The notes beneath the pieces are model-generated. The model did no database searches, was not told the origin of the DNA, and worked only from the letters and a program-made list of their open reading frames with translations. Source: Isosphaeraceae bacterium (lineage in GTDB: Bacteria; Planctomycetota; Planctomycetia; Isosphaerales; Isosphaeraceae). Taken from it: a stretch of DNA of 43,032 nt. Made by a program: the position numbers and the translations under genes. Each line of letters begins with the position of its first letter. The first letter of the stretch is position 1. Positions 4,129 through 26,548 of this stretch are shown piece by piece. Where the stretch lies: NCBI GenBank assembly GCA_025356475.1, contig JANXSX010000047.1:1-43032 (forward strand), in the 5' to 3' direction.

Positions 4129-6198
4129 TCAAGATGACTTTCGCAACCGATCGACAATTGCCGACGTGTCATAGACACATCCACCCCAGGTGCCGCCTCC
4201 CACCGCTTGGAGGGCTGCCCAGAGTCGGGTGTCGTCGGGCAGGTCGGGATCGGGTGCGAGTTCGGGGTGGGGATCACGAGTTGCGAGGTCGACGTCCAGG
4301 ACGTTGATTGAGCCTTCAAGGCTGTTGCGGTCGATCGTGATCGAGATCATATCACCATCGCGGAGTTTGCCGATCGGTCCGCCGGCCAACGCTTCGGGGC
4401 CGATGTGCCCGATACAGGCCCCTGTGGAGACGCCCGAAAATCGGGCATCGGTCAGTACGGCGACATGCTTTCCAAAGGGTAGGAACTTGAGAGCGGCGGT
4501 GATCTGATAGATCTCTTCCATCCCTGCTCCCATCGGCCCTCGACCGATCAGGACGAGCACATCGCCCGCTTGGATTGGATTCGTGGATTGCCCTTTGATG
4601 GCTGCGATCGCGTCACGCTCGCGACAGAAGACCTTGGCAGGGCCCGTCTTACGATAGACTCCATCAGGATCGACAACGCTCGGATCGATCGATGTCGACT
4701 TGATCACCGAGCCCTCGGGCGCGAGGTTCCCGCGTGGGAATGTCACGGTGCTGGTTAACCCCCGAGCCTTCGCCAGGCTCGGAGACATGATCACATCATC
4801 GGGATCGACTCCGTCCTGTTCGGCGAGCCGTTTCCGGAGTGCCGCCCGGCGATCGGAGCCAATCCACCAGTCGAGCGACTTCGCTAAAGGCTCTCCGGTG
4901 ATGGTCAAGACTCGGTCGTCGATCAGTCCGAGGTCGCGAAGATGAAGCATGACTTCTGGAACTCCGCCTGCCAGGAACGCCCGGACTGTCGGGTGATCCG
5001 ATGGACCGTTGGGCAGGACGTTCACAAGCCTGGGAACCCGGACATTCAAGGCATGCCAGTCATCAACAGTGGGTCGACGCAGCCCTGCCGCAAACGCAAT
5101 CGCTGGAATGTGTAAGAGCAAATTCGTCGAACCGCCGAAGGCCGCATGGACTGCCATCGCGTTGCGAATCGATGCATCCGTCATTATGTCTTTGAGAACT
5201 AAACCTCTCTGTGAGAGGTGCATCAGGGCACGGGCCGATCGCCTTGCAAGCTGCTTCCAGATTGGCTGTCCCGAAGGAGCCAGCGCCGCATGAGGGAGGG
5301 TCAGGCCGAGGGCCTCTGCAACCACCTGAGTCGTCGCCGCCGTCCCCAAGAACTGGCAGCCTCCGCCGGGGGTCGCGCAAGCCCGACAGCCCATATCCGC
5401 TGCCTCTTGCAGCGATATGGATCCATGCACATAACGGGCCCCGATCGACTGGATCTTGCCCGCATCTTCCCCATGAGTCGGAGGTAAAGTCACGCCGCCC
5501 GGCACAAAGACAGACGGCAAATGACCGCACCCTGCGAGCGCCATCAGCATTGCCGGGGCCCCTTTATCGCAGGTCGCAATTCCGAGTACTCCCTTTCGAA
5601 GTGGCAAGGACCGGATTAGCCTACGGAACACAATCGCTGCGTCGTTGCGATAGGGGAGGCTGTCCATCATGCCCAAAGTACCTTGGGTCCGACCATCGCA
5701 AGGGTCAGAGACCATCCCCGCAAACGGGACAGCATCGAGCCGCCGGAACTCCTCGGCAGCCTCCTGTACCAGCATCCCGATTTCCCAATGGCCGGTGTGG
5801 TAACCCAGAGCGATCGGTGTTCCATCGGGGTTGCGGAGCCCGCCCATCGTACTGAGGATCAAGAAGGGGTCGCGATCCACCTTCGCAGCTTCCCAGCCCA
5901 TCCCTGCATTCTGGCTCAGCCCAAAGAGGTCGCCCGAAGGCCAATGCCGAAGCATCTCATCGGTCAGGGGGAGTGAGCCACTCGGACCCTCAGCCTTAGT
6001 TGAGACCGCGAAGACCGAAGGATCATCCTCGTGCACGAGAGCATCAAACGCCAAACCTGCCACAAACACCCCCTGGTAATCCCAAGAACCTTGCAAAGCA
6101 GCCGACCCGCACGCACTACTCGTACTACGATCTGACCATGCCCGCCCATCCATCACAAGCCGGCTGACGCTCGGTCCGTGAACCATCCGATCTTGCAT
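4129..6198 (-). CDS. IlvD/Edd-family Fe-S dehydratase, YjhG/YagF (sugar-acid dehydratase) type
   Basis: The 689-residue protein belongs to the dihydroxy-acid dehydratase / 6-phosphogluconate dehydratase family. It resembles the YjhG/YagF branch (about 650 residues), which dehydrates aldonic acids such as D-xylonate to 2-keto-3-deoxy acids. Visible motifs include [17 protein letters not shown], the cluster-binding segments [14 protein letters not shown] and [32 protein letters not shown] and the C-terminal [17 protein letters not shown]. It is unlikely to be branched-chain IlvD because the YjhG-type N-terminus is present and length exceeds 560. The start at ATG 6198 lacks a clear ribosome site; Met5 is possible. 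The GH44 gene lies 81 nt upstream on the same strand. Confidence 0.88.
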
Positions 6199-6279
6199 GC
6201 ATCAGGTGCATCCTGTATGTCACTCCATTCCGCAGGAGTCCCTGAAGCGAGACATCGTGTCTGGCCGATACCTTCAGAT

Positions 6280-7854
6280 CTAGCCGGGCCCCGGCACTTC
6301 CAGCAGCGTCGCCGAGAGAGGAGGCAACCTTAGGGATGTTATGGCTGCGTCAATGGCTTGCTTGCTGAGACTCAGCTTGGGGGGGTTCGACTCGACTCGG
6401 GTCAGGTTCGCCGTCCGAGGACGACTCTGGCCGATGCCGGTCAATTGAACATCGACTTTTGCCTTGATGTCCTTGTTGATCAAGATAAGCGTCGTCGCCT
6501 TATCCAACTTGCGTCTTGCGGCGAAGATGCTGACTCGCTCGGGATCGCTCGATTGGCAGGCGAGGTAGGTCTCACCAAACCCGGGGCCCTTGCCGCGAGG
6601 GTTACGGTATAGCTTCATGGCCAGCTTCTGAACGCCCCCCATTCCCGCCCAGAAGTAGGCATGGTCGACCTGCTCACGGGCAAAGATCCCCAGAACCTCC
6701 GCCTGGGCGATCGCTCCACTAATATCGTCATCCCCTCCCCAGCTATATTCTCCCAGGCAGACACCAAGGCCAGGATTGTAAGCTTCGATCCACTCTCGAC
6801 AGCGTGGGATCAGCTTAATCGGCTCATTGATCCAGCTTTCGTCCTTATAGTTTGGGTCCCAAAGCCCCCTGGTCGAGCGGATTCGCAGAGCCCTCATGGC
6901 ATCACTGGGAGTCTTACCGTTGAAAATCGGCTGGCCATCGGCTTGGCCTTGGGGGTAGATGTGAACATCCAGGAGGTCGATCAAGGGCTTGCCGTCTGCG
7001 GTGGATGCCTTTTGCATCTCGCGGAGGTACCAGGCGGCGAAGGGAAGGCCTTCGTGAGCTCGGTTGTCCGCATGGGTCGCGTAGCGGTCCTTACCTTCAT
7101 CAAGTGCGGAAAAGTTCAGATCCGTCCAGCCCCAAGTCACTGGCCCTGCAACGAGCGCTGATGGGTCGGCCTTCTTGATCGCCCGAGCATAGTCACGTCC
7201 TCGCGTGAAGATCTCGTCATAACCGGATGGGATTGGATGAACATCACGATGGGTATGGCTCCAGAGCATAGGCTCGTTGTCGAGCCCGTAAACTCTGGGC
7301 AGACCCCGCGCTGCCTTGGGGAGGAGCTTGATTCCTTCCGCCTGGAGGACGGGGGTTGACTCGACTGAGGTGTCCCGGGGGTCATTCCCTGTGATGGGGG
7401 TTCCCTCCGGTTTGAGTCCATTGCCCCGGTCGGCGACATAGGGCTCCACCTTCTGCTGAGCCCCGTACTTCGCGACAGAGAAGCCGCTGCCATCGGCCCC
7501 CTTTGCGATCCAAGGCAACATCGGAACCGTCACGTAGCTGGCAATTTTGGCTTTATTCTGTTTCGTGACGTCATCGACCCAGTTGCCGGCCTTCCCGTTC
7601 AGGAAGAACCAATCCGAGCCTGCATTGTCGGCACGACTCTTCCAGTTGTAACGCGAGGTCCGGTTTCCTCCCCATCGAAGCGCAGTAACGCCCGCCTCCA
7701 AGGCGCGATCGACCGGCATCGCCGAGACACCATAAATGTATGGACTGATCGAATGCAGTGGCCGATCGGGCTCAATCGTGATCTTGACGAGATCATCGGC
7801 CCTGGTCGATCCCCCGATGGTTACACCGAATACAAGAGCCCAAACTCGAAACAT
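6280..7854 (-). CDS. secreted glycoside hydrolase family 44 protein
   Basis: The 524-residue product starts with a signal peptide (MFRVWALVFGVTIGGSTRA), so it acts outside the cytoplasm. GH44 features are clear: SISPYIYGVS near residue 35, LRWGGNRTSRYNW near 59, LDNEPMLWSHTHRDVHP with the expected acid/base Glu194, LLDVHIYPQG near 294, and LGEYSWGG with the expected nucleophile Glu369. Family members cleave beta-1,4-glucan or xyloglucan. The frame stays open upstream to 8163, but that part overlaps the divergent cytochrome gene. I therefore start at ATG 7854, where the signal peptide begins; an ATG at 7896 is the alternative. Confidence 0.88.
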   Translation of the reverse strand: MFRVWALVFGVTIGGSTRADDLVKITIEPDRPLHSISPYIYGVSAMPVDRALEAGVTALRWGGNRTSRYNWKSRADNAGSDWFFLNGKAGNWVDDVTKQNKAKIASYVTVPMLPWIAKGADGSGFSVAKYGAQQKVEPYVADRGNGLKPEGTPITGNDPRDTSVESTPVLQAEGIKLLPKAARGLPRVYGLDNEPMLWSHTHRDVHPIPSGYDEIFTRGRDYARAIKKADPSALVAGPVTWGWTDLNFSALDEGKDRYATHADNRAHEGLPFAAWYLREMQKASTADGKPLIDLLDVHIYPQGQADGQPIFNGKTPSDAMRALRIRSTRGLWDPNYKDESWINEPIKLIPRCREWIEAYNPGLGVCLGEYSWGGDDDISGAIAQAEVLGIFAREQVDHAYFWAGMGGVQKLAMKLYRNPRGKGPGFGETYLACQSSDPERVSIFAARRKLDKATTLILINKDIKAKVDVQLTGIGQSRPRTANLTRVESNPPKLSLSKQAIDAAITSLRLPPLSATLLEVPGPG

Positions 7855-10760: not shown

Positions 10761-12983
10761 ATGAGAATCTGGCTCGGTCGAGCGATGGCGCTCCTAATCG
10801 GGATTTCTCCCGTAGCATGCTTCGGGCAAGGATCGAAGGCCGAATATGTCCGCGCCGAGACATTGGCGCGAACACGACGCGATACGGTATTCAAATCCAA
10901 GGTAGAGCCTCACTGGGATTCTTCCGGCGACCGATTTTGGTACCGGAACGACTTGTCGCAAGCCTCTTTTGAATATGTTGAAGTATCAGCAACAACCGGT
11001 AAGATTCGGCCTGCATTTGACCATATCGCCTTGGCGGACGCTCTCAGCAACGCTCTGCATCAGACCTTCAACTCCGCAAAACTCTCGTTAACCGCAGTCG
11101 AACCGTTCGATCCTGGTGAGTTCAACTTCCGCATTGATGGGAGAACTTTCCGGTGGGACTTGCAAACTCAGTCGCTGACCACGATTGATCCCCCACCGCC
11201 CAAAATAGCCCCTGAAGTCGGTCAGCGGCGACGCTCTTTGGTCACATCCCCTGATAAGACATACGCTTTGATATTACGCGAATATAACCTTTTCCTTGTT
11301 GACCGAACCGATGGCTCCGAACGGGCTCTGACCAAGGATGGAACCGAAGCTGACCGCTATGAACTGAACAATCTCGCCTGGTCGCCCGACTCATCTCGGC
11401 TCGTCGCAATGCGAACCAAACAAGGTGACAGCCGTAAGGTGAACCTGATCGAATCGTCGCCTCGTGACCAGCTTCAGCCCAAGGTTTCCGACTATAGCTA
11501 CCTCAAGCCGGGCGACCAAGTACCCAGGCCGGTACCTCACCTGTTCAAACTCGAAAATGCCGAAGAGATACCGATCGACACCAAACTCTTCGAGAATCCG
11601 TACAGCCTGGACCATCTGCGCTGGAGTCCCGACTCATCAAGGTTCACATTCCTCTATAATCAGCGTGGGCATCAGGTTCTCAGGATCATCAGCGTCGATG
11701 CCTCGACGGGTTCAACAACGGCGATCGTCGACGAAACTTCGCCGTCGTTTATCGACTATTCCCAGAAGACCGACGTCAGGTTCATTGACAAAACCGATGA
11801 CTTGATCTGGATGTCCGAACGGTCGGGATGGAATCACCTTTACCTGATTGACTCGAAGACGGGCACTGTCAGGAATCCGATCACTCAGGGTGACTGGGTG
11901 GTTCGTTCCATCGAAAGCATCAATGAAGCCGACCGCGTCATCTGGTTCCGAGCCATGGGGATTCGGCCCGGCGAGGACCCCTACCATGTCCATTATGGCC
12001 GAGTCGATTTCGATGGGCGGGGTTTGGTGTTTCTGACCGAAGGTGATGGGACCCATACGGTGAGCTTCTCTCCCGATCGACGATTCTTAATAGATACATA
12101 CTCACGAGTGGACTTGCCCCCAATCACCGAGCTTCGGCGGGCGACTGACGGCAGATTGATTTGTGAGCTTGAGCGGGCCGATGTGTCGATGCTCGAAAAG
12201 ACCGGCTGGAAACCTCCGCAACGATTCGCAGCGAAAGGTCGTGATGGCCAAACGAATATTCATGGAGTTGTCTATCGACCAACAAGCTTCGATCCTTCGC
12301 GTCGCTATCCAGTGATTGAATATATCTACGCAGGTCCGCATGACTTTCATGTTCCCAAGTCGTTCAGTGCAACCCATCGGCCCGAGGGAATGGCCGAACT
12401 TGGCTTCGTGATGGTGCAGATCGACGGGATGGGCACGAACTGGCGGTCACGAGCTTTCCATGACATCTGCTGGAAGAACCTTGCCGACGCAGGATTTCCC
12501 GATCGGATCCTTTGGCTCAAGTCACTGGCCGCTCAAGAGTCCGCCATCGACTTGTCGAAAGTTGGAATCTACGGAGGATCGGCAGGAGGTCAGAATGCGC
12601 TCGGGGCCTTGCTTTTTCATGGAGATTTCTACAAAGCAGCCGTTGCCGACTGCGGCTGCCACGATAATCGGATGGACAAGATCTGGTGGAACGAAGCGTG
12701 GATGGGATGGCCAGTTGGTACGGAATACGCCACAAACTCAAATGTCACAAACGCTCATAAATTGATTGGTAAACTCTTGCTCACCGTCGGCGAACTCGAT
12801 CGGAACGTCGACCCTGCCTCGACCATGCAGGTAGCCAATGCATTGATCAAGGCCGACAAGGATTTTGAATTGATCGTTTTTCCCGGTGGCGGCCATGGGT
12901 CGGGCTCGAGCCCCTATGGGACGCGCCGGATGCGTGATTTCTTCGTTCGTCACTTGCATGGGCTCGAACCCAGAAAACAATAA
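10761..12983 (+). CDS. secreted S9-family (DPP-IV/prolyl oligopeptidase type) serine peptidase
   Basis: The 740-residue protein has an N-terminal signal sequence (to about residue 23) and a propeller region of the DPP-IV type (about 40-470; repeated WSPDSSR blocks at 207 and 288). An alpha/beta hydrolase domain follows. The catalytic triad is visible: Ser607 in YGGSAGG, Asp680 in GELDRNVD and His712 in GGGHG. Such enzymes remove dipeptides or cut short peptides. GGAG at 10749-10752 is spaced 8 nt from ATG 10761. The following cytochrome gene starts one base after the stop, so the two are very likely co-transcribed. Confidence 0.9.
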   Translation: MRIWLGRAMALLIGISPVACFGQGSKAEYVRAETLARTRRDTVFKSKVEPHWDSSGDRFWYRNDLSQASFEYVEVSATTGKIRPAFDHIALADALSNALHQTFNSAKLSLTAVEPFDPGEFNFRIDGRTFRWDLQTQSLTTIDPPPPKIAPEVGQRRRSLVTSPDKTYALILREYNLFLVDRTDGSERALTKDGTEADRYELNNLAWSPDSSRLVAMRTKQGDSRKVNLIESSPRDQLQPKVSDYSYLKPGDQVPRPVPHLFKLENAEEIPIDTKLFENPYSLDHLRWSPDSSRFTFLYNQRGHQVLRIISVDASTGSTTAIVDETSPSFIDYSQKTDVRFIDKTDDLIWMSERSGWNHLYLIDSKTGTVRNPITQGDWVVRSIESINEADRVIWFRAMGIRPGEDPYHVHYGRVDFDGRGLVFLTEGDGTHTVSFSPDRRFLIDTYSRVDLPPITELRRATDGRLICELERADVSMLEKTGWKPPQRFAAKGRDGQTNIHGVVYRPTSFDPSRRYPVIEYIYAGPHDFHVPKSFSATHRPEGMAELGFVMVQIDGMGTNWRSRAFHDICWKNLADAGFPDRILWLKSLAAQESAIDLSKVGIYGGSAGGQNALGALLFHGDFYKAAVADCGCHDNRMDKIWWNEAWMGWPVGTEYATNSNVTNAHKLIGKLLLTVGELDRNVDPASTMQVANALIKADKDFELIVFPGGGHGSGSSPYGTRRMRDFFVRHLHGLEPRKQ

Positions 12984-16136: not shown

Positions 16137-17573
16137 TCAAGGTTCCCTGTCTTCTTCAGCGTGATCAACTCTTTCGCTGGGAATGTGGACCATTCGATCC
16201 GCCAAGATTTCCTTGGCAGCCTGCATCCGGGTCGTGACTCCAGGCTGCGGGAAGAGGCCACCGCCCAAGATGATTGCAGCGATCGTTAGGACCGCGAAAC
16301 GTTCCCAGAATCCGAGTTGAAGTGAGACCGTCGAGTGGTGCCGTGCCCCGGTAAATAGCAGGAAGTAGGCGCGGAGCACTGCGATCCCGTTGAGGGCTGA
16401 GGCTGCTACGATCCCAATACCAACGTATGGGTTCGCCTCAACAGCGCTCTCCACAAGCAGCTCACTCGAGATAAACCCGAGAGTCAGTGGGAAGCCGATG
16501 CAGGCGAGACCCGTTAGCATGAAGCAGACCGCGAGCGTTGGCGAGTGCTCGTAAAGACCGTGGTGTCGAGTGAGTGAGAGCCGACCAAATCTGCCTTCAA
16601 GAGCTCTCAGCGTGAGGCCAAATCCGCCGAGCGAGAGCATCGTTGAGAACCATAGGCAGAGCGACCCGCAGAGTGAGAGTTGGGTGTGTAACTCAAGTCC
16701 CACCAGGACCATCGACGAGATACTGAGGAACAGATATGCATAGAAGCGACGATCTTCGCGCTGAACGGTGGCCATAGCAGCAGCATATACGGCGGTGATT
16801 AAGGAGAAGATGCCGATACTTTGGAGAACCCAGTCTGGGGCGATCGGCAACACGAGTCGGACAGCGGCGTAAACACCCGTCAGAGGTGATACATTGAGGA
16901 TCGCGATCCCGAACGATGCATGCTCAAACCAGTCGGTGAGCCAACAGTGGGCCGGGACAGTTCCGCAAATCAAGAGGATCGCCAGCAATAGTGGTATTGC
17001 AGCCCACCAGGGGGCTGGGGTGGTCGCTGAGCCCGCCAATTCAACCCCTGCCCCTCCGACAATGAGAAGGACGATGAAGAGCAGCATATGACGGGTATAG
17101 AGACGTGTCGGTCGGTCTCGATTTTTTAGCTCGATATAGGGAGGGACAGTTGACATTACGAGCAGAGCGATGAGAACCCACGGTTCTTTGCAACTGAAGG
17201 TGGCCAGCCGGAGCGTTTCCGAGAATAAGGACCATGTGAATGAGAACCGCCTCATGAGAGTGCGCGGTGTCGCCAGGGCGGTCAGGAAGTGGAGCAGAGC
17301 GATCGTCGGGACGAGGGGAGCGCTCAATTCATCGAGCGAAAAAAGCTGTCTGCCGAACAGAAAGGGCTGGAGACTCCAACGCGTGATCAACACGCTATCC
17401 GTCCCCAGATAGTATGCCAGCCAAGCCATGAAGGAACAGAAAAAAGAGGTCCCTGTGAAGCCTAGACCGAACCGGTGGGCTCTCAGCGGGTCACTCTGGC
17501 GGCTGACCCAGAATGCCCCGATGAACGCGACCAGGATCGAGATATCAAGCCAAGGGAGTGCAAGAACGTTCAT
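16137..17573 (-). CDS. NuoM/NuoN-like membrane subunit of the DAB operon, degenerate
   Basis: The 478-residue protein is almost entirely transmembrane (about 13 hydrophobic segments) and aligns by eye with proton-translocating antiporter-like subunits of complex I. The block [17 protein letters not shown] (207-223) corresponds to the usual KxPxHxWLPDAH segment, but the expected lysine is Thr205. I also see no obvious counterpart of the TM5 glutamate. It overlaps the upstream NuoL-like gene by 4 nt (ATGA, 17570-17573) and closes a three-gene operon headed by dabA. A structural role, or a second, altered ion path in the inorganic-carbon pump, is possible. It converges with the cytochrome gene that ends 14 nt away. 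Confidence 0.75.
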
Positions 17574-18976
17574 GAGAAGTCTTCGATGGTTTCGAGCTGT
17601 GACTTGATCAGGTCCGACTCACGCGACGACTCACCCGAAAGGAAATCGGTCCAGCGCCGTTCTAATCCATCGCACCAGCGGAACGCCTTCACGAATGGAT
17701 TTACGACATAATCGAGCAAGATCGTGTCGAGGGAGCCACGCTCCATCGCAAAGCGATAGATCCACGACTGAGCCTTGCGGGTACCCAGGCTACTGAGTGG
17801 CACCCCGCCCTGGTCGAGATTCTTACCAATCGCATCTTCCAGGGTTCGGTAATCCTGAAGCAAGCTTGGGGCTCGAACGAATTGGAGCGTTCTCAAGAAG
17901 GCATGTCCAAGGATGTGGACGAGTGGAATATAACCCCATTCCGGATCGACAAGTCCGACGCAGCCGATTTCTGCAACAATCAGCCCGACTTGTGATAAGG
18001 ACGCGAAGGATAAGGCGGATTTGATATCCGTCTGAACGGTCCCCACGAGATAGGCGTAAATCGCCGTGAGCAAGCCGACGATGATGATGATCACACAGAG
18101 TGTGGTCGATTGTTGAAGGATCGGGCTGGACCGGAGAAGTAAGAAGGCACCAAGGTGAACACTTAACGCTCCGTAGAAAACAGCGCTCGACGGAGTTGGG
18201 CCTTCCATCGCGCGAGGGAGCCAGCCTGAGAATGGGACGAGAGCCGATTTTCCAGCGGCTGCCACGAGCAATAACAGACCGACCAGGAGAGCTTGTTGAG
18301 AACTCAGAGCGGAGTGTCCGTCCGGCCAGGAGACCGCCAGCAACATCTGGTCGAAGTCACCCTCGCCATTAAAGTGGTGCAAGACAACATCGGCAAGGAG
18401 CAGCGCAGCGTCGGCGAACCGGTAGTTGATCCAAACCCAGAGGCCGTTCCGGGAAGGCGCAGGTCGTTCTTGAAAGAAGCCAACCAGGAGAGCAGATGAG
18501 AGTCCGACGAGTTCCCATCCTGTGAATAGGGTTTCAATCGTGCCGGCCAGAGAGGTAACGATCATTCCCAGAACGAACAGTGAATACAGGACGAAGAATC
18601 GGTTGAACCCCTTCTCCCGGTGCATGTAGCGGCCTGCGAACGCTGCAATTGTGCCTGAGAGGACGAAGGTCAAGATTGCGAATGGGACGGATAATCGATC
18701 GAATACCAACTTGACTGAGAAGTGATAAAGATGAGGGATCATCACCCACTGACCAAGCTCTACTGTGATGTGTCTCGACCCACCGATCAGCATTGACGCT
18801 AGCACGATCAGTGACGCGATCAGGCCGACCCCCGTCGCGAAATAGACAAGCTTCTCGGTCGATCGCTCCTCGAGTTTATACTCAAGCAGTGAAGAAAGTC
18901 CGAGGACGATCGTCAGAATCGTCGGGCAAGCGACGACAACGAATCCGAAGAAGAGGGGTATCTGTTCCGAAAACAT
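17570..18976 (-). CDS. dabB: NuoL-like proton-conducting subunit, DabB homologue
   Basis: The 468-residue membrane protein has the core of NuoL/MrpA-type channels. Glu155 lies in TGWELVGLS and Lys243 in [25 protein letters not shown]; both are residues needed for proton movement in this family. [17 protein letters not shown] segment (near 335) matches the conserved DIKxxLAYSTxSQ. It is shorter than complex I NuoL (about 610) and close to DabB. The position 24 nt downstream of dabA supports the DabB call: in known DAB systems this subunit brings cation flow to the DabA carbonic-anhydrase-like partner. Confidence 0.85.
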
Positions 18977-19000: not shown

Positions 19001-22000
19001 TCAGGTGGTAACCTGGTTCACGGGGACGATCTGGGCAAACTCGAGGTGTTCCCGCCAGCCCCGGTACCACTCAGCGGAGGAAGAGGCTTGCGGAAGCACG
19101 GTCGCAACGGCCTCGTGCGGTACGAACCCATTGTCGCCAAACAGCGTGAGCGCTCGTGTCTCGGGATGGATTAAGGCGAGCTGAATCCAACGATTGCGAC
19201 AGAGCTGACTGATCCCTGCGTTGCGGTCCATGATCGTGAACATTCGATCTGCAGTTGTCTCGATGATAAACAAAGACCGCAGCGGCTCGTGAACTTCGAC
19301 CATTTGCCAAGGAAGGCCGGTGCGTAAGTCGCTTGCTGCCCCATCCATGACCCCGACCAAAGCCGCCAGGTTGTGAGGGAGTTTTGTCCCCGACCCGAGA
19401 ACGATGTTATCAACGTTGGAAAAGTTGTAGGTGAAGTTGATCCCGGAACAAACTGGGAAGACCGCTGACAAAATTCCAGCGAGAATCGTGGAGTTCTCAT
19501 CGTCCTGGGTCGGGTCGTAAGACGCGAGGAAGGCACGTCGATCGAGGAACAAGCCACGCGACCAGGAGCGTCGTCCCACGATGGTTATCGCGTTGGTGGC
19601 ATGTCCGAGCTCAGGGCGAGTCTGCGCGAGATCTTCGGCTCGTTCTTCAACATGTTCAAGTGCTTCAGAAAAGGAAAGGGTCAGCGGTGCAGACATGAAA
19701 CGACGGCATCTTTCATGTGCATTTCGTTCACATGCGGCTTCGAGGTTGGCCCTTGCCTTGCTGAAGTCAGGTCGATGCGAGTCGCGGATTCGATCAAGGT
19801 CGGAATACTCGATTGTGTCGTTACAAGTGTTGTGACAACCGGAAACGAAAACCGTATCTTCGGGGATGAGCAGACCACGTTTTGCAAGGTTGGCACGGAC
19901 TCTGTTGTCGTTGAGGATTTGGGCCACAGCCCGAGCGTTGGGCCCACCGGCACCACCACCGCAGGCCCCGCAATTATAGGCGGAGTTGTAGGGGTTATTC
20001 TGCGAATTCGAGCCATGTCCCAGGATGATCACGAGTCGAGCGAAGCTTTTGGTGAGCCCCATATCACTGAGTAATCGTTGCCCGATTGAGGTCATCTCAT
20101 CAAGGTTGAATCCGGTGCTCTCTCCTTCTTTTCCCGGAGTGAGCGTCGTTCGTTCCAGGTGAAGATGGGTAATCGGTGGGGTCCGAACAAAGCGGCCCAG
20201 CGAGCTGCGGATTCTTGCGGTAACCCGTGGGAAGAGGATACGTGCCACCAAAGGAAACGAGGCGAAAACGCCGACGGCACCCGTCAACAATGCACCAAGG
20301 GCTACCGAACGGCTACCAAGATGGAATTGATGCGACGCGGTGCCAATCATCCGCCGAGTCTTCGCCCGGAACCGGCTGGCCTTATCGAGTGCGATCCCCG
20401 GCTCTTCGAGAACCCAGTGCTGGGGACGGATCACGACCGGACAGAGCGGAGTGAAGTGAGCGTCCGCCATCCCCTTATAATACATGGCGAGGTTGAAGAA
20501 CCCCGCCACTCCAAGCGTCTCAACGTCAGGTGCGATCTCTTCAAGATGTCGACGGAACGATTCCTCTCGCTCATCGAGACAGAAAACGACCTGGAACCTC
20601 GGCGGAGCGGTTGGAATTTTCTCGAGAGGACTATGGAGCGTGATCGCATCCAATGCGCGGGTCCGGAAGTGCTTCTCATATCCAAGATGAAAAATGCGCC
20701 TTCTTTCCAAACCTGAAAATGTCTCGATCTCACGCATGAGATCGATCCACTGGGCTCGGTCGAGTCGATAGAGCAGGTCTGGGGAAAGCCCCATGATCTG
20801 AGCGATCTGGAAGAGTTGGAATGCTCGTTGTTCGTCGCTCGGGGGCCAATGTGGCTTGATCAAGACGCGCGTTATACTCCTAAGCTCAGCCAACGGTCCG
20901 TTGAAATCGATAAGCTCGTGCGCTTTGAACTTGAGAGCAAATCGATCGAGCAGGAGTCGGATCGCCAGGAACTCAACCAGGCTCCCTGGAGGGACAGGCT
21001 TGACGGCCCGGTCGCCTCGAATTTCCACCTGCCGGACCATCCCCGCCCAGCCCCGTAAGGCCAAGAACGTTGCGGACAGGAATGCTTCACGTTCCTCCGG
21101 CTGGACACCGAGTTGTTCGAGCGAGTCGCGGATCGAGGCCAGGGGGTTAACCTCTTCGCTTTCGAGCCGTCTCAGTTCCGCAGCCAACCCGCGCATCCAG
21201 AGAGCCGGCATCCCACCCGGTTGGCCGTAGAGCGAACAGAACGACTTAAAGAAGCCTTCGTCACGACGAGGGAGGGGCCAGCGAGCGAGTCCCTGGTCGA
21301 GGAAGGCGGAGCAGAAGCGGATCAAGATTCCGTGGACAAGCCGATCAGAATCCGCGCCAGTTGCCTCATGCAACAGGTCACGATGTCGGATGAACATCGG
21401 AGGCGGCGATGTGAATTGAGGGAGGTCGCGAACGCCCGACCTGCAAATCTTCCAGAGGGCTTGAAGGGTAAATTCCTCCCATCTCTCGTCGGCCCAATTC
21501 TCGATCGACGACTCGCCAAAGCGGTCGAGAAGTTCGCCCAGGCCGTTTCCCACACGCTGTTTTCTGACCCCGTCGGGCCCCGTCTCGGTCCAACCTCGGA
21601 GGTCGCGCATCACCCATCGACGAGTCTCGGCGATGAGTCGAGCACGGGCAGTCGAGGACGCATCACTGCGCACTTTTCGTAGCGCGTCGGTCTCTGCAAC
21701 GTACCAGAGCAATTCGGCGGTTGGGCCGGTCTTGGTGGGGTACTCCAACATTGCCAGCCGCAGGTCGAGTCGAGTCCCCCAGCCAGCAACCTGCTCCGAG
21801 GCTCGTCCGCCAAGGTCCTGGGCGAGCACTACTTTCAAGTCGGAAAATCGAATGCGAGCCCGCCCGAGTTCCTCGCGATAGCGATCCTCGCTTAGGTAGG
21901 GCTGACAACCCAGAACCGTTGCCGCCCGTTTCATCCCCTCGTCGAACGGGTGATGCTCGAACGCTTGAAGGATATTCTGCGCGATAAAGACCGTAATAGG

Positions 22001-22117
22001 ACCTTGGGTGGGCAGTACATCCGCGACATGATCGATCATGCGCGAGAGTTGATCCAAGTCGGGATCGGTCACGATGTTCCCCTGCTCCCCTACCACTGGC
22101 AATGTAGTTTCATTCAT
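19001..22117 (-). CDS. dabA: DabA (DUF2309), zinc-dependent inorganic carbon pump subunit
   Basis: The 1038-residue protein has the DUF2309 architecture. The zinc ligands known from Halothiobacillus DabA (Cys, Asp, His, Cys) are present: Cys513 and Asp515 in VVFCLDERE, His701 in IILGHGSNSQNNP and Cys716 in YNCGACGGGAGGPNARA. The 15-residue spacing between the last two is conserved. A related duplicate segment (QNILQAFEHHPF) begins near residue 48, as in the family. In known systems DabA converts CO2 to bicarbonate one way, driven by ion flow through DabB. The operon continues with dabB and a second membrane subunit. The start at ATG 22117 has no strong ribosome site. Confidence 0.92.
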   Translation of the reverse strand: MNETTLPVVGEQGNIVTDPDLDQLSRMIDHVADVLPTQGPITVFIAQNILQAFEHHPFDEGMKRAATVLGCQPYLSEDRYREELGRARIRFSDLKVVLAQDLGGRASEQVAGWGTRLDLRLAMLEYPTKTGPTAELLWYVAETDALRKVRSDASSTARARLIAETRRWVMRDLRGWTETGPDGVRKQRVGNGLGELLDRFGESSIENWADERWEEFTLQALWKICRSGVRDLPQFTSPPPMFIRHRDLLHEATGADSDRLVHGILIRFCSAFLDQGLARWPLPRRDEGFFKSFCSLYGQPGGMPALWMRGLAAELRRLESEEVNPLASIRDSLEQLGVQPEEREAFLSATFLALRGWAGMVRQVEIRGDRAVKPVPPGSLVEFLAIRLLLDRFALKFKAHELIDFNGPLAELRSITRVLIKPHWPPSDEQRAFQLFQIAQIMGLSPDLLYRLDRAQWIDLMREIETFSGLERRRIFHLGYEKHFRTRALDAITLHSPLEKIPTAPPRFQVVFCLDEREESFRRHLEEIAPDVETLGVAGFFNLAMYYKGMADAHFTPLCPVVIRPQHWVLEEPGIALDKASRFRAKTRRMIGTASHQFHLGSRSVALGALLTGAVGVFASFPLVARILFPRVTARIRSSLGRFVRTPPITHLHLERTTLTPGKEGESTGFNLDEMTSIGQRLLSDMGLTKSFARLVIILGHGSNSQNNPYNSAYNCGACGGGAGGPNARAVAQILNDNRVRANLAKRGLLIPEDTVFVSGCHNTCNDTIEYSDLDRIRDSHRPDFSKARANLEAACERNAHERCRRFMSAPLTLSFSEALEHVEERAEDLAQTRPELGHATNAITIVGRRSWSRGLFLDRRAFLASYDPTQDDENSTILAGILSAVFPVCSGINFTYNFSNVDNIVLGSGTKLPHNLAALVGVMDGAASDLRTGLPWQMVEVHEPLRSLFIIETTADRMFTIMDRNAGISQLCRNRWIQLALIHPETRALTLFGDNGFVPHEAVATVLPQASSSAEWYRGWREHLEFAQIVPVNQVTT

Positions 22118-22913: not shown

Positions 22914-23961
22914 CAGGACTGTCCGGTGAACTCCGAAGGTACTCGTCGGATCTCCCTGTAGTTTCTAGTGTTAGACGTTGCATCATCTGTTTTTGATCTG
23001 AACTCTAGGGTAGCTTTTGAGCCATTTTGCTACGCGTCACAACGACCAGGATTTGGCTCATGCTCAACGACCGCTATGTCTTCTCCCAACTGATGGACTT
23101 CCTCCCCAAGCACGAATTCCACCGTTGTGTGGCGCGCTATCAAGGCAATCAACGGAATTGGATTCCACAACAATCGACCTATGTATGAAGCTCTTTTCGT
23201 GGACGCGATTCCATCGCCGAAAGGGAGCAATCAAACTGCATACGCTCATCGACTTGCGCGGGAATATCCCTTGTTTGTACGGATTACTGACGGTAAGGTA
23301 AACGATGTCAATGTCCTTGATAGCTTGCCGATCGAGGTCGGTGCGTTTTACGTGATGGACCGGGGATACGCTGATTTCGGCCGACTCCGTCGATTTACAT
23401 TGGGCCAGGCGTACTTTGTAACTCGGGCCAAGACCAACCTTGACTTCAGCCGCCGATCGTCTCAACCCATCGACAGGTCTACCGGACTTCGCAGCGATCA
23501 AACGATCATACTCAAGGGTCTTAAGACGTCGAAGCTTCATCCTGAGGCCTTGCGTCGCATCAGCTACTGCGACCCATAGAAGAGCAAGCGGTACGTGTTC
23601 TTGACCAACAACTTCGACCTTCCGTCATTGACAATAGAGAATATCTACAAAAGTCGCTGGCAGATCGAATTATTCTTTCGATGGATCAAGCAAAATTTAA
23701 GGATCAAGTCGTTTTCTGGAACTTCGCCGAACGCTGTGAAGACGGAGGTCTGGATTGCGATCTCCATTTACGTGCTGGTGGCCATCATTCGCAATGAACT
23801 GAATGTGGAACATTCGTTGCACGAAATCTTGCAAATCTTGAGCGTCTCACTTTTCGAGAAAACCCCAATAAACGAGGCTCTTTCGCGCAAAAAACCCATC
23901 AATGGTGAGGAGTGACGCCATAACTACCTCCTAGCAAAGAACTTGCAACCGGACAGTCCTG
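22914..23961 (+). mobile_element. degraded IS4-type insertion sequence with perfect 14-bp terminal inverted repeats
   Basis: CAGGACTGTCCGGT at 22914-22927 is repeated in inverse orientation at 23948-23961. These ends bracket the remains of a transposase gene, giving a 1048-bp element. The flanking bases show no matching target duplication. The element appears internally deleted, because the transposase N-terminal and catalytic regions are joined too closely. With a broken transposase it can only move if helped in trans. Confidence 0.8.
23060..23915 (+). pseudogene. IS4-family transposase, inactivated (DUF4372-type N-terminus)
   Basis: ATG 23060 opens a family-typical N-terminus (VFSQLMDFLPKHEFHRCVARYQGN) that is cut off by an apparent deletion near 23150. 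The sequence continues in another frame with LDSTTIDLCMKLFSWTRFHRRKGAIK and LHTLIDLRGNIP. A frameshift near 23270 leads to ITDGKVNDVNVLD, FYVMDRGYADFGRL and FVTRAKTNLDFSRR. An in-frame TAG at 23577-23579 then interrupts the gene before FLTNNFDLPSLTIENIYKSRW, QIELFFRWIKQNLRIKSFSG and the end at 23915. Catalytic-core pieces (DSTTI, MDRGY, the YKSRWQIE...K signature) remain recognisable. At least three independent lesions show it is dead. Confidence 0.9.
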
Positions 23962-23987: not shown

Positions 23988-24497
23988 TCAGCCCACCTCG
24001 TTTAATCTCCAGATCGCAAAGTTGAGGAGAGAGGCGAAGGTGACCCAACCCAGGTAGGGGACCAACAGGATCGACGCCAATCGGCTGACGTCCCAGAAGC
24101 TTATAATCGTTGCGAGGATCGCGACCCACATCAGGAGGATTTCAACGAATGCAAGGCCAGGATTCTGATATGAGAAAAACAGGCTCGACCAGGCGAGATT
24201 CAGTGCCAGTTGAAGTGTGAACCAACCCATCGGTGTCTGAAGTTCGTTCAACTTGCGCTCGCGCCAGACGAGCCAAGCGGACACCCCCATCATGGTGTAC
24301 AAGATCATCCAGACCGGGCCAAAGACCCAGTTTGGAGGGTTGAACCAAGGCTTTTGCAAGGACGGATACCAGCTCAAGAGACCGCTCATGGTCATGGCCG
24401 CGCCGGCTCCGGCGATTGTATAGCAGACGGAAAGCCATCCCACGATGCCCATCAATTCCACTTTCCCCGAGTGCGGTCTCTGAGCGGCTTCAGTCAC
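23988..24497 (-). CDS. tspO: TspO/MBR family tryptophan-rich sensory protein
   Basis: The 169-residue protein has five hydrophobic segments and the family's Trp/Pro-rich motifs: WYPSLQKPWFNPPNWVFGPVW (near 43-63, shortened here), YTMMGVSAWLVW and the LNLAWSSLFF block (near 98-107). TspO proteins bind porphyrins and act in the outer or inner membrane in stress and tetrapyrrole handling. GTG 24497 overlaps the stop of the upstream Fae-like gene (GTGA, 4 nt), so translation is probably coupled. An internal ATG at residue 16 is an alternative. The IS element lies just downstream. Confidence 0.92.
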   Translation of the reverse strand: MTEAAQRPHSGKVELMGIVGWLSVCYTIAGAGAAMTMSGLLSWYPSLQKPWFNPPNWVFGPVWMILYTMMGVSAWLVWRERKLNELQTPMGWFTLQLALNLAWSSLFFSYQNPGLAFVEILLMWVAILATIISFWDVSRLASILLVPYLGWVTFASLLNFAIWRLNEVG

Positions 24498-25039
24498 AAT
24501 TGACCGTCCAATCCCTGCTGATGGAAGAAGTGAGTGACTTTGCTTTGATTCTCAAGGAGCCAGTCGATGGTGGGTTCACCTCGCATGGCTTTCCGGATCA
24601 CCTTCACTGTTGCCTCACGATGGACTTCAAATAGGGCCGCATGGTCGACTTCGACATCCACGATGGAAGGGTCCAGCCAAACCGAGTAAATGATCCCGAG
24701 TTCGTGGGCCTGTTCCTTGGGGATGTCACCCGCCCGGACTGCATCCAAGACCCCGTTAGCGATCGCAGCCTGGACAGTTCCCATCAGGATATTGGTGTAT
24801 TTGCTGGACTTGACCGTAACCTTGCTGACCATGATCGTGACCGGTTTGACCTGAATATCGCTATTCAGGATCGCGAAGACACGGCTATGCCCTTTGACCT
24901 GGTCGCCGATCAGATTCGCCAGAGCCGTTCCGACCGGACCGTCAAGTGCCCCGATCACGATCTCCGGCTCAGCGCACAAATAGTCCTTAGCCCCTTCGAC
25001 CAGGGCTTCACCGGTCCGTAAGATAATGCGTTCACTCAT
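24494..25039 (-). CDS. formaldehyde-activating enzyme (Fae) homologue lacking the catalytic His
   Basis: The 181-residue product follows Fae along its length: RTGEALVEG at the start, IVIGALDGPVGTALANLI, KGHSRVFAILN, KPVTIMVSKVTVKS, MGTVQAAIANGVLDAV and a GEPTIDWLLENQ end. Fae joins formaldehyde to tetrahydromethanopterin, a C1 pathway known in some planctomycetes. In true Fae the segment AHIDLxIG carries the catalytic His17. Here it reads AEPEIVIG, with Glu24 in its place, so classical activity is doubtful; it may be a Fae paralogue. The start is ATG 25039; the frame opens further up at 25096. It is coupled to tspO by a 4-nt overlap. Confidence 0.85.
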   Translation of the reverse strand: MSERIILRTGEALVEGAKDYLCAEPEIVIGALDGPVGTALANLIGDQVKGHSRVFAILNSDIQVKPVTIMVSKVTVKSSKYTNILMGTVQAAIANGVLDAVRAGDIPKEQAHELGIIYSVWLDPSIVDVEVDHAALFEVHREATVKVIRKAMRGEPTIDWLLENQSKVTHFFHQQGLDGQL

Positions 25040-25458
25040 GCGTTGCCTTGGTTGGTTGGGTTCGAATTCAGGGTCGGGTGCCAATCGAGCAATCATTATC
25101 TCCTTAGCGACGATCAGGGCAAGTCACGTCCCAGATGCGTCTTCAAACGGAGGAGAATGAGGGATCGATGCCAACGATTTGGATGCCTTTCCGCCGTCTT
25201 TGCCTTACTCTTGCTTCAGATCTCGATCATAATCAGGCGAAAACTCGTGATCCGATCCTCTCTTCTGCGGACAATTGCATCGTTGCCACGCTGTCTGAGT
25301 GGTATTAATTTGACGGTTCTCCAGGTATCGATGCCCATGTTAAAGGTACACTCCTCATGTGGCCGTCATGGGCGAGGCCCGAGATGGAAATCGCATAGAG
25401 AGTCGAGTAAAATCCAGGTTCCGAAGTAAGTTCGCGGGGGAAAGAACTGGGGATTCTA
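25040..25458. other. intergenic region between the Fae-like gene and the HEPN cassette
   Basis: About 420 bases separate these divergent genes. A frame from ATG 25157 preceded by GGAGG (25149-25153) would encode a hydrophobic peptide reading LSAVFALLLLQISIII, but spacing is short and the tail looks random. A second small frame from ATG 25168 ends at 25309. Neither is convincing. A TTGACG at about 25309-25314 could be the -35 element of a promoter for the downstream cassette. Confidence 0.3.
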
Positions 25459-26115
25459 ATGATCGAAAATCGACAACTCTGGACTGTCAGCATCTACGAA
25501 GTCAATGCAGACCCCATGGGGCTAGCCTTCTCATTTGTGCCAAACGACCTGACTTCGGCCCGAATTCTCGGCGAAATACCGAGTCGTGTCCGGGAATACA
25601 TCCTTGACCTAAGGTGGAGTCGCGAGGGCATTGAGTTCGATTGGGGCAGGACGCTTGATGACCCTGGTGAGCGTAAGACGGAGTTTGAGAATGAGGCAAG
25701 ACGGCGTGTCGATGCGAGGCGGGCCTGGATCGGCGGGGTTAACCTGCTCGTCACCAATGTAGAAGAGTGGGCGAGGGAACTCAGTTGGGAGACCCGCCGG
25801 ATTGACAAACGCCTCGACGACTCATATATCGGGAAACATCGCGTAACTGCTCTTCTTATGCAGCAGGAGACATTCCGCGTACTGCTCGAGCCAGTTGGAC
25901 TCTCGGGGCTCGGGGCCGAGGGGATTGTCGATCTCTACCAACTCCCAGCGTACGACGATATCGCTCGGCTCACCTATAAGGATAGCCAGTGGAACTTCCA
26001 CTTTGCCTTTCAAAGCGATAATATTGTTGGAAACAATCGCCTCGTCCAGGGCGTTCCACTCTCAAAAGGAACACTGCGGACCGTACTCGATGAGATGCGG
26101 ATCCATGCCTTATAA
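25459..26115 (+). CDS. unknown protein, first gene of the HEPN cassette
   Basis: The 218-residue soluble protein matches no family I recognise. It has a beta-rich N-terminus (RQLWTVSIYEVNADPMGLAFSF), a charged helical middle (about 70-115, with EFENEARRRVDARRAWIGG and EEWARELSWETRRIDKRLDD) and a mixed C-terminus. Its 3' end overlaps the next gene by 11 nt, so the pair is almost surely co-expressed. By position it could be the antitoxin, sensor or partner of the HEPN protein, but nothing in its sequence proves that. GGGGAT upstream of ATG 25459 is a modest ribosome site. Confidence 0.65.
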   Translation: MIENRQLWTVSIYEVNADPMGLAFSFVPNDLTSARILGEIPSRVREYILDLRWSREGIEFDWGRTLDDPGERKTEFENEARRRVDARRAWIGGVNLLVTNVEEWARELSWETRRIDKRLDDSYIGKHRVTALLMQQETFRVLLEPVGLSGLGAEGIVDLYQLPAYDDIARLTYKDSQWNFHFAFQSDNIVGNNRLVQGVPLSKGTLRTVLDEMRIHAL

Positions 26116-26548
26116 TCACGAATGGCAGACTCGCATAAAATCGGTCGAACGTGAATATCTTGTAATGCGGCAGGCTGCCGATCGTTTTCAGCAACAGTCA
26201 TGGGATGATTCAGCGATTCTTACGAGTCAATTCGGGCACTCCGACATCAACAAGGCCTCTAAGAATCTGGAAAGCACATATGTCATGCGACTGTTCGCTG
26301 AATTCGAATCGGGAGCGAGGCAGTACTGGGAGGAGACTTGGAACACAGAGCCAAGAACGAAAGATCTCCTCGACGGATTAGCTGCCAGGTGCCATATTCC
26401 TGATACTGAAAAGAATAATGGTCATTCGATACGTAAGTATCGGAATAGTTTGGTACATGAACGCGAGGACGATCAAGTAGCAGTGTCGATTATTGTTGTT
26501 CGGCGCTACCTCTGCCGGTTCTTTAGCTTCTTGCCCCAACAGTGGTGA
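26105..26548 (+). CDS. small protein with a HEPN-type R-N-x3-H motif
   Basis: The 147-residue, mainly helical protein contains [13 protein letters not shown], in which Arg113, Asn114 and His118 fit the Rx4-6H signature of HEPN-domain RNases. It lies before a final helix ([20 protein letters not shown]), the usual placement. HEPN proteins are RNA-cutting toxins or effectors in toxin-antitoxin, abortive-infection and CRISPR systems; some are only structural. ATG 26105 lies inside the previous gene (11-nt overlap); the frame is open further upstream, but that part lies in the other gene. Codon third positions look more AT-rich than in neighbours, hinting at transfer. No identity to a named family is claimed. 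Confidence 0.7.

Follow-up and report, generated by a model that had tools for sequence, protein, structure and literature searches.

A conserved two-gene cassette of planctomycetes probably encodes a HEPN-type RNase toxin and an antidote belonging to a new protein family

Here, we describe a two-gene cassette located on a stretch of 43,032 nt from an Isosphaeraceae bacterium (assembly GCA_025356475.1, contig JANXSX010000047.1; subsequently designated the window), which most probably is a toxin-antitoxin (TA) operon, the downstream gene B encoding an endoribonuclease toxin of the HEPN fold and the upstream gene A its neutralising antidote. Both open reading frames (ORFs) and their overlap of 11 nt, as listed in the initial annotation of the window, were confirmed (Table 1). 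HEPN toxins are among the commonest effectors of TA modules, and the antidote best known for them, MNT, is an enzyme. The A-B pair is a real conserved module, and we call it novel as a HEPN TA module with an undescribed antidote family, which appears to be unrelated to MNT and is missed by Pfam, NCBIfam, PADLOC and PHROGs.

The assignment of B rests on its predicted structure and on its putative active site. AlphaFold2 modelled B as a helical bundle (pLDDT 93), for which Foldseek returned HepT chains with probabilities of 0.97-0.99. In the VIA fold search, the model aligned with HepT SO_3166 at Z 11.6 (3.7 Å over 124 residues), and the top 16 rows were HepT toxins or homologues of HEPN proteins with nucleotidyltransferase partners; Z values below ~13 may be generic for helical bundles, but the top of this list consists almost wholly of HEPN proteins. 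Predicted fold and fold searches therefore agree on the HEPN bundle that the initial annotation had proposed, and B is, as judged from its model, a HEPN protein. Look-ups in Pfam, NCBIfam, PADLOC and PHROGs gave only sub-threshold HEPN-type matches for B, and the sub-threshold Pfam matches of its family were mostly to HEPN families (DUF4145, HEPN_Swt1, HepT-like, RiboL-PSP). Nothing useful emerged from a PDB sequence search with the profiles of A and B. The Rx4H motif R113-N114-x3-H118 is present in B as initially reported; it is located at the end of helix 100-117, the penultimate helix of the model, and agrees with the HEPN signature, i.e. Rx4-6H with a polar residue following the arginine. 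An alignment of 29 homologues showed T58, E68, R110, R113, N114 and H118 to be invariant. Among 52 intact pairs, R110, R113, N114 and H118 were each retained in 52/52 and E68 in 51/52. Conservation of R113 and H118 had been named beforehand as one of the points on which the proposal could fail. B would thus be expected to cleave RNA through the R113/H118 site. Two B genes (L094:5847-6116 and L143:8007-8290) carry a near-identical in-frame internal deletion, which removes approximately residues 13-84, whereas the start codon region and the helix with the catalytic RNxxxH are kept; the deletion may represent decay that occurred repeatedly or a genuine short version of B.

The two genes stay together across the planctomycetes. 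In a protein search of 99 relatives, 21 genomes had B and 24 had A; the two genes were almost always adjacent, with A first, and a genome held up to four copies. A profile search of the class (397 genomes) gave 55 genomes with B and 60 with A. Linkage is accordingly conserved far beyond chance, with same-order homologous pairs in dozens of genomes, a point that the initial annotation had proposed to check. The named database loci of the close relatives are nearly all from planctomycetes. When 29 pairs were examined in detail, A and B were found to overlap in 27, by 4, 8, 11, 14 or 20 nt, which suggests translational coupling. Three loci that had appeared as exceptions to linkage, L140 (B without A) as well as L119 and L129 (A truncated), turned out upon inspection to be intact pairs with a divergent A. 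Several features typical of type II TA modules are thus combined: the genes are small, adjacent, co-directional and overlapping, their order is constant with the proposed antidote gene at the 5' side, their occurrence is sporadic and multi-copy, and distant members reside on prophage-like contigs and plasmids. A PADLOC scan comparing the 100 nearest with 100 distant neighbour genes (at least 6 kb away) revealed no enrichment of defence genes near the planctomycete copies; among the matches listed, those of near neighbours were mainly to one kinase and to generic methyltransferases. The immediate neighbours are mostly housekeeping genes, so that in planctomycetes the pair resembles a cassette standing on its own.

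An indication of the respective roles of A and B comes from their decay. Intactness was scored at 76 close-family planctomycete loci by profile matches and reading of frames. Both genes are intact at 54 of these loci, and at 14 an intact A is accompanied by a B that suffered a frameshift, a stop, an internal deletion or loss (L060, L064, L076, L077, L094, L106, L124, L125, L132, L134, L136, L138, L143, L144). The reverse, a broken A next to an intact B, was observed at none. Both genes are decayed at five loci (L069, L070, L073, L074, L145); the remaining three are truncated where their contigs end (L075, L141, L142). This bias of 14:0 (binomial test, two-sided p about 1e-4) towards loss of B first fits a B that does harm in the absence of A and an A that is its antidote. 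It supports the first half of the earlier suggestion that A is an "antidote or sensor", and it argues against A being the toxin or a mere activator. Reversed roles, with A acting as toxin and B as a non-catalytic HEPN antidote, would suit the novelty of A and the existence of non-catalytic HEPN domains (PMC3710099). However, the 14 loci with intact A and decayed B would then hold an unopposed toxin, the active-site motif of B is invariant (52/52), unlike in non-catalytic HEPNs, and A is the 5' gene, all of which makes this reversal extremely improbable. At L073, ~6 kb separate what is left of A (6123-6389) from what is left of B (12595-12885), as though an insertion had split the pair.

Searches with the window sequences or the close-family profile detected no close homologues on plasmids, in phages or in IMG/VR; the relatives on plasmids and in IMG/VR were reached solely via distant-family searches. 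Seven distant A proteins are encoded elsewhere in the phylum (L082-L088), six of which are followed by a HEPN-like ORF, with motifs reading RHWLAHGR(Y), RDWLAHGR or RNWVAHGK. Profile comparison connected the distant with the window family for A (probability 99.2, hhalign E 9e-20) as well as for B (probability 95, hhalign E 3e-8). When the distant B profile was run against IMG/VR, 10 loci were obtained, and in 10/10 an A-family protein is encoded directly upstream of the HEPN protein of the "RHWLAHGRY" type. Prophage-like signs are an integrase on L158 and an RdgC gene on L157. Relatives of both proteins, all annotated as "hypothetical protein", are also present on 18 plasmid records of Klebsiella/Raoultella, many of which are non-mobilizable ColRNAI plasmids of ~4.6 kb carrying the pair, with an overlap of 8 nt, as main cargo. 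The Klebsiella proteins match the distant profiles with E 1e-21 (A) and 4e-19 (B). No copy was found in E. coli genomes searched with the DNA of the Klebsiella pair. In one case (L174; Klebsiella quasipneumoniae plasmid p1B6885, NZ_CP072469), a small-plasmid block with the distant pair is contained in a 135-kb IncFIB plasmid, and IS26 is located ~4 kb from the block, suggesting cointegration.

This distribution also bears on the idea that A and B form an ordinary heteromeric enzyme for RNA processing or regulation that has no role in conflict. The housekeeping neighbours would be compatible with such an enzyme, and the toxicity of B is a prediction. However, the pair is sporadic and multi-copy (found in 55-60 of the 397 genomes of the class, with as many as four copies in a single genome) and often decayed, and small non-mobilizable Col plasmids carry its distant versions as their main cargo. 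A core enzyme would not be distributed in this way, and we judge the idea very unlikely.

No match for A was obtained in Pfam, NCBIfam, PADLOC or PHROGs, in keeping with its first description as a protein of no recognised family; A is a new protein family. In the AlphaFold2 model (pLDDT 88), an N-terminal beta domain (residues 1-61) is followed by a long helix (70-107), a sheet of six strands and a helix at the C-terminus. Foldseek found no match for A with an E value under 0.1. All members share only the region from residue ~82 on; within this core W110, P145, P163 and W178 are invariant or almost so, and G152 and D158 are nearly invariant. A similarity of the core to Mediator/CapZ subunits (VIA Z up to 8.2) was not used, as the score is at the tool's level for unrelated models. 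Signs of a nucleotidyltransferase were looked for in A: there is no such match in Pfam/NCBIfam and no conserved GSX10DXD motif in the alignment of A, nor is an MNT chain among the fold matches, although absence from a match list does not exclude an MNT fold. Most members are bare cores lacking any N-terminal extension, whereas the window protein and four relatives (L041, L051, L053, L055) possess the ~80-aa beta domain (residues 1-80) and L048, L052 and L054 a different N-terminal part.

These variable N-termini could sense different cues, and A might accordingly be a sensor or activator in an abortive-infection system, turning B on when it recognises a phage cue. The distant pairs on prophage-like contigs (L158, L157) would fit such a system, and HEPN proteins act in many abortive-infection systems (PMC3710099). 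However, most A proteins consist of the bare core, and defence genes are not enriched beside the planctomycete copies. Moreover, if A did no more than activate B, a B left alone should do no damage and loci that have lost A ought to occur, but this was seen at 0/76 loci and the reverse at 14. We therefore regard a sensor role as unlikely, albeit as the most serious of the alternatives. Of the original proposal of a "toxin-antitoxin or defence module", the first part is supported by predicted HEPN fold, motif, linkage and decay bias, while the second finds no support in the gene neighbourhoods.

Several observations weigh against the assignment as a TA operon. Some of the breaks in B may be sequencing errors of draft genomes, although random errors should strike A and B about equally. 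In favour of the module, the distance matrices of A and B co-vary (Mantel r 0.57; none of 2000 permutations exceeded 0.25), which is the expectation for genes travelling together, although permutation of matrices leaves shared ancestry in this co-variation. The link to the phage and plasmid proteins is weaker for B than for A (E 3e-8 vs 9e-20). An Aneurinibacillus plasmid (L175, NZ_CP116888) carries an A-family gene without B beside a DUF262 gene, which fits an orphan antidote, but possibly also another role. Finally, A has no recognisable fold match that would point to its mode of neutralisation.

For the TA operon that we favour, the following mechanism can be envisaged. B would be an RNase toxin whose active site is formed by R113 and H118 with support from N114, R110 and E68. 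A would be made first, and coupling of translation across the overlap would keep it ahead of B. Neutralisation would most likely occur through direct protein-protein binding, A covering or distorting the active site of B; direct binding is to be expected because B lacks the tyrosine used for AMPylation and A shows no sign of a nucleotidyltransferase. Upon loss or titration of A, which may be triggered by loss of the plasmid or locus, by stress or by infection, B would cut cellular RNA and growth would be arrested. More speculatively, and with somewhat less than even confidence, we propose that A founds a new antitoxin fold family, by which HEPN RNases are neutralised otherwise than through AMPylation by MNT, and that its interchangeable N-terminal domains tune release of the toxin to different cues in planctomycetes, prophages and small plasmids.

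In the window, the pair is flanked by a divergent operon and by msrA as first described, i.e. by minus-strand TspO and Fae genes (Pfam E 1e-49 and 2e-55, respectively) on one side and by msrA and a GNAT gene on the other. The gene for Fae (formaldehyde-activating enzyme; 24494-25096, minus strand) overlaps the TspO/MBR gene (23988-24497) by 4 nt. The remnant of an insertion sequence reported at a distance of 1.5 kb corresponds to two DDE_Tnp_1 fragments upstream of A (23127-23579 and 23595-23915). AT-rich third codon positions had been ascribed to both genes; this holds for B, in which GC content at third positions (0.50) is lower than in any other of the 22 genes compared, whereas A is ordinary with 0.61 (other 20 genes: 0.59-0.77). 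No convincing operator repeat or promoter was found upstream of A. Further away, the window encodes a full-length DabA inorganic-carbon transporter subunit (19001-22117, minus strand; PF10070, E 2e-233), of which two minus-strand ORFs (16137-17573 and 17570-18976) may be partners. The genome also has two conventional HepT-like genes (PF01934), which lie close together on a different contig (C102).

Table 1. Features of the A-B cassette in the window.
Feature	Position	Strand	Evidence
Gene A, proposed antidote, 218 aa	25459..26115	+	ORF; homologues in 24/99 relatives; alignment; AlphaFold2 model
Conserved core of A, ~135 aa (residues ~82-217)	25702..26112	+	Homologue search and alignment
Gene B, proposed toxin (HEPN RNase), 147 aa	26105..26548	+	ORF; AlphaFold2; HepT-type fold matches
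Overlap of A end and B start, 11 nt	26105..26115	+	Overlap of 4-20 nt in 27/29 homologous pairs
Codons for R110-K-Y-R113-N114-S-L-V-H118 of B, predicted RNase active-site motif	26432..26458	+	R..RN...H in 52/52 intact homologues
E68 codon of B; acidic residue conserved in helix 2	26306..26308	+	51/52 intact homologues

The module ranges from planctomycete chromosomes through prophage-like contigs to cryptic Col plasmids of Klebsiella. Many "hypothetical proteins" would thereby gain a testable role, and the plasmid versions of the pair offer an easy laboratory model.

The literature on HEPN proteins in planctomycetes and on non-MNT partners of HEPN proteins does not describe the pair; as subscription literature was little covered, an earlier description is possible. 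Closest in appearance is HepT/MntA (HEPN/MNT, type VII TA), which likewise is a two-gene operon with the antidote gene at the 5' side and a HEPN toxin that has an Rx4H motif and resembles B in size and predicted fold (see the VIA match to SO_3166). In the classical system, HepT is switched off by MNT, which AMPylates the tyrosine of the RX4HXY motif (PMC7641770). In contrast, B lacks the AMP-accepting tyrosine, H118 being followed by E119-R120 and the second position after the histidine never being tyrosine in 52 homologues, and A gave no match to nucleotidyltransferase families and none to an MNT-like fold among its fold matches. RnlA/RnlB (LsoA/LsoB) also employs a HEPN RNase as toxin, an activity that is predicted for B. 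The N-terminal domain of RnlA resembles that of the window A (VIA Z 4.4-4.5, ~3.3 Å over 64-65 residues), a weak similarity that may be due to chance; in RnlA this domain is part of the toxin itself, whereas here it belongs to the partner, and only in some members. A further two-gene arrangement of a HEPN protein with a non-MNT partner is the dyad of MAE_18760 and a ParA/Soj ATPase, which has been proposed to be a TA system (PMC3710099, Anantharaman et al. 2013); its partner is an ATPase, whereas the window A has no ATPase match. DUF4145 (PF13643), known from the context of restriction-modification, Ter and McrBC systems (PMC3710099), is the commonest sub-threshold Pfam match in the B family (12/29 members, best E 4e-4), but the window B stays below the curated cut-off (12.5 vs 23.1 bits). 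Finally, several type II TA dyads have their antitoxin encoded ahead of the toxin (PMC3710099), and the placement of A 5' of B follows the same order.
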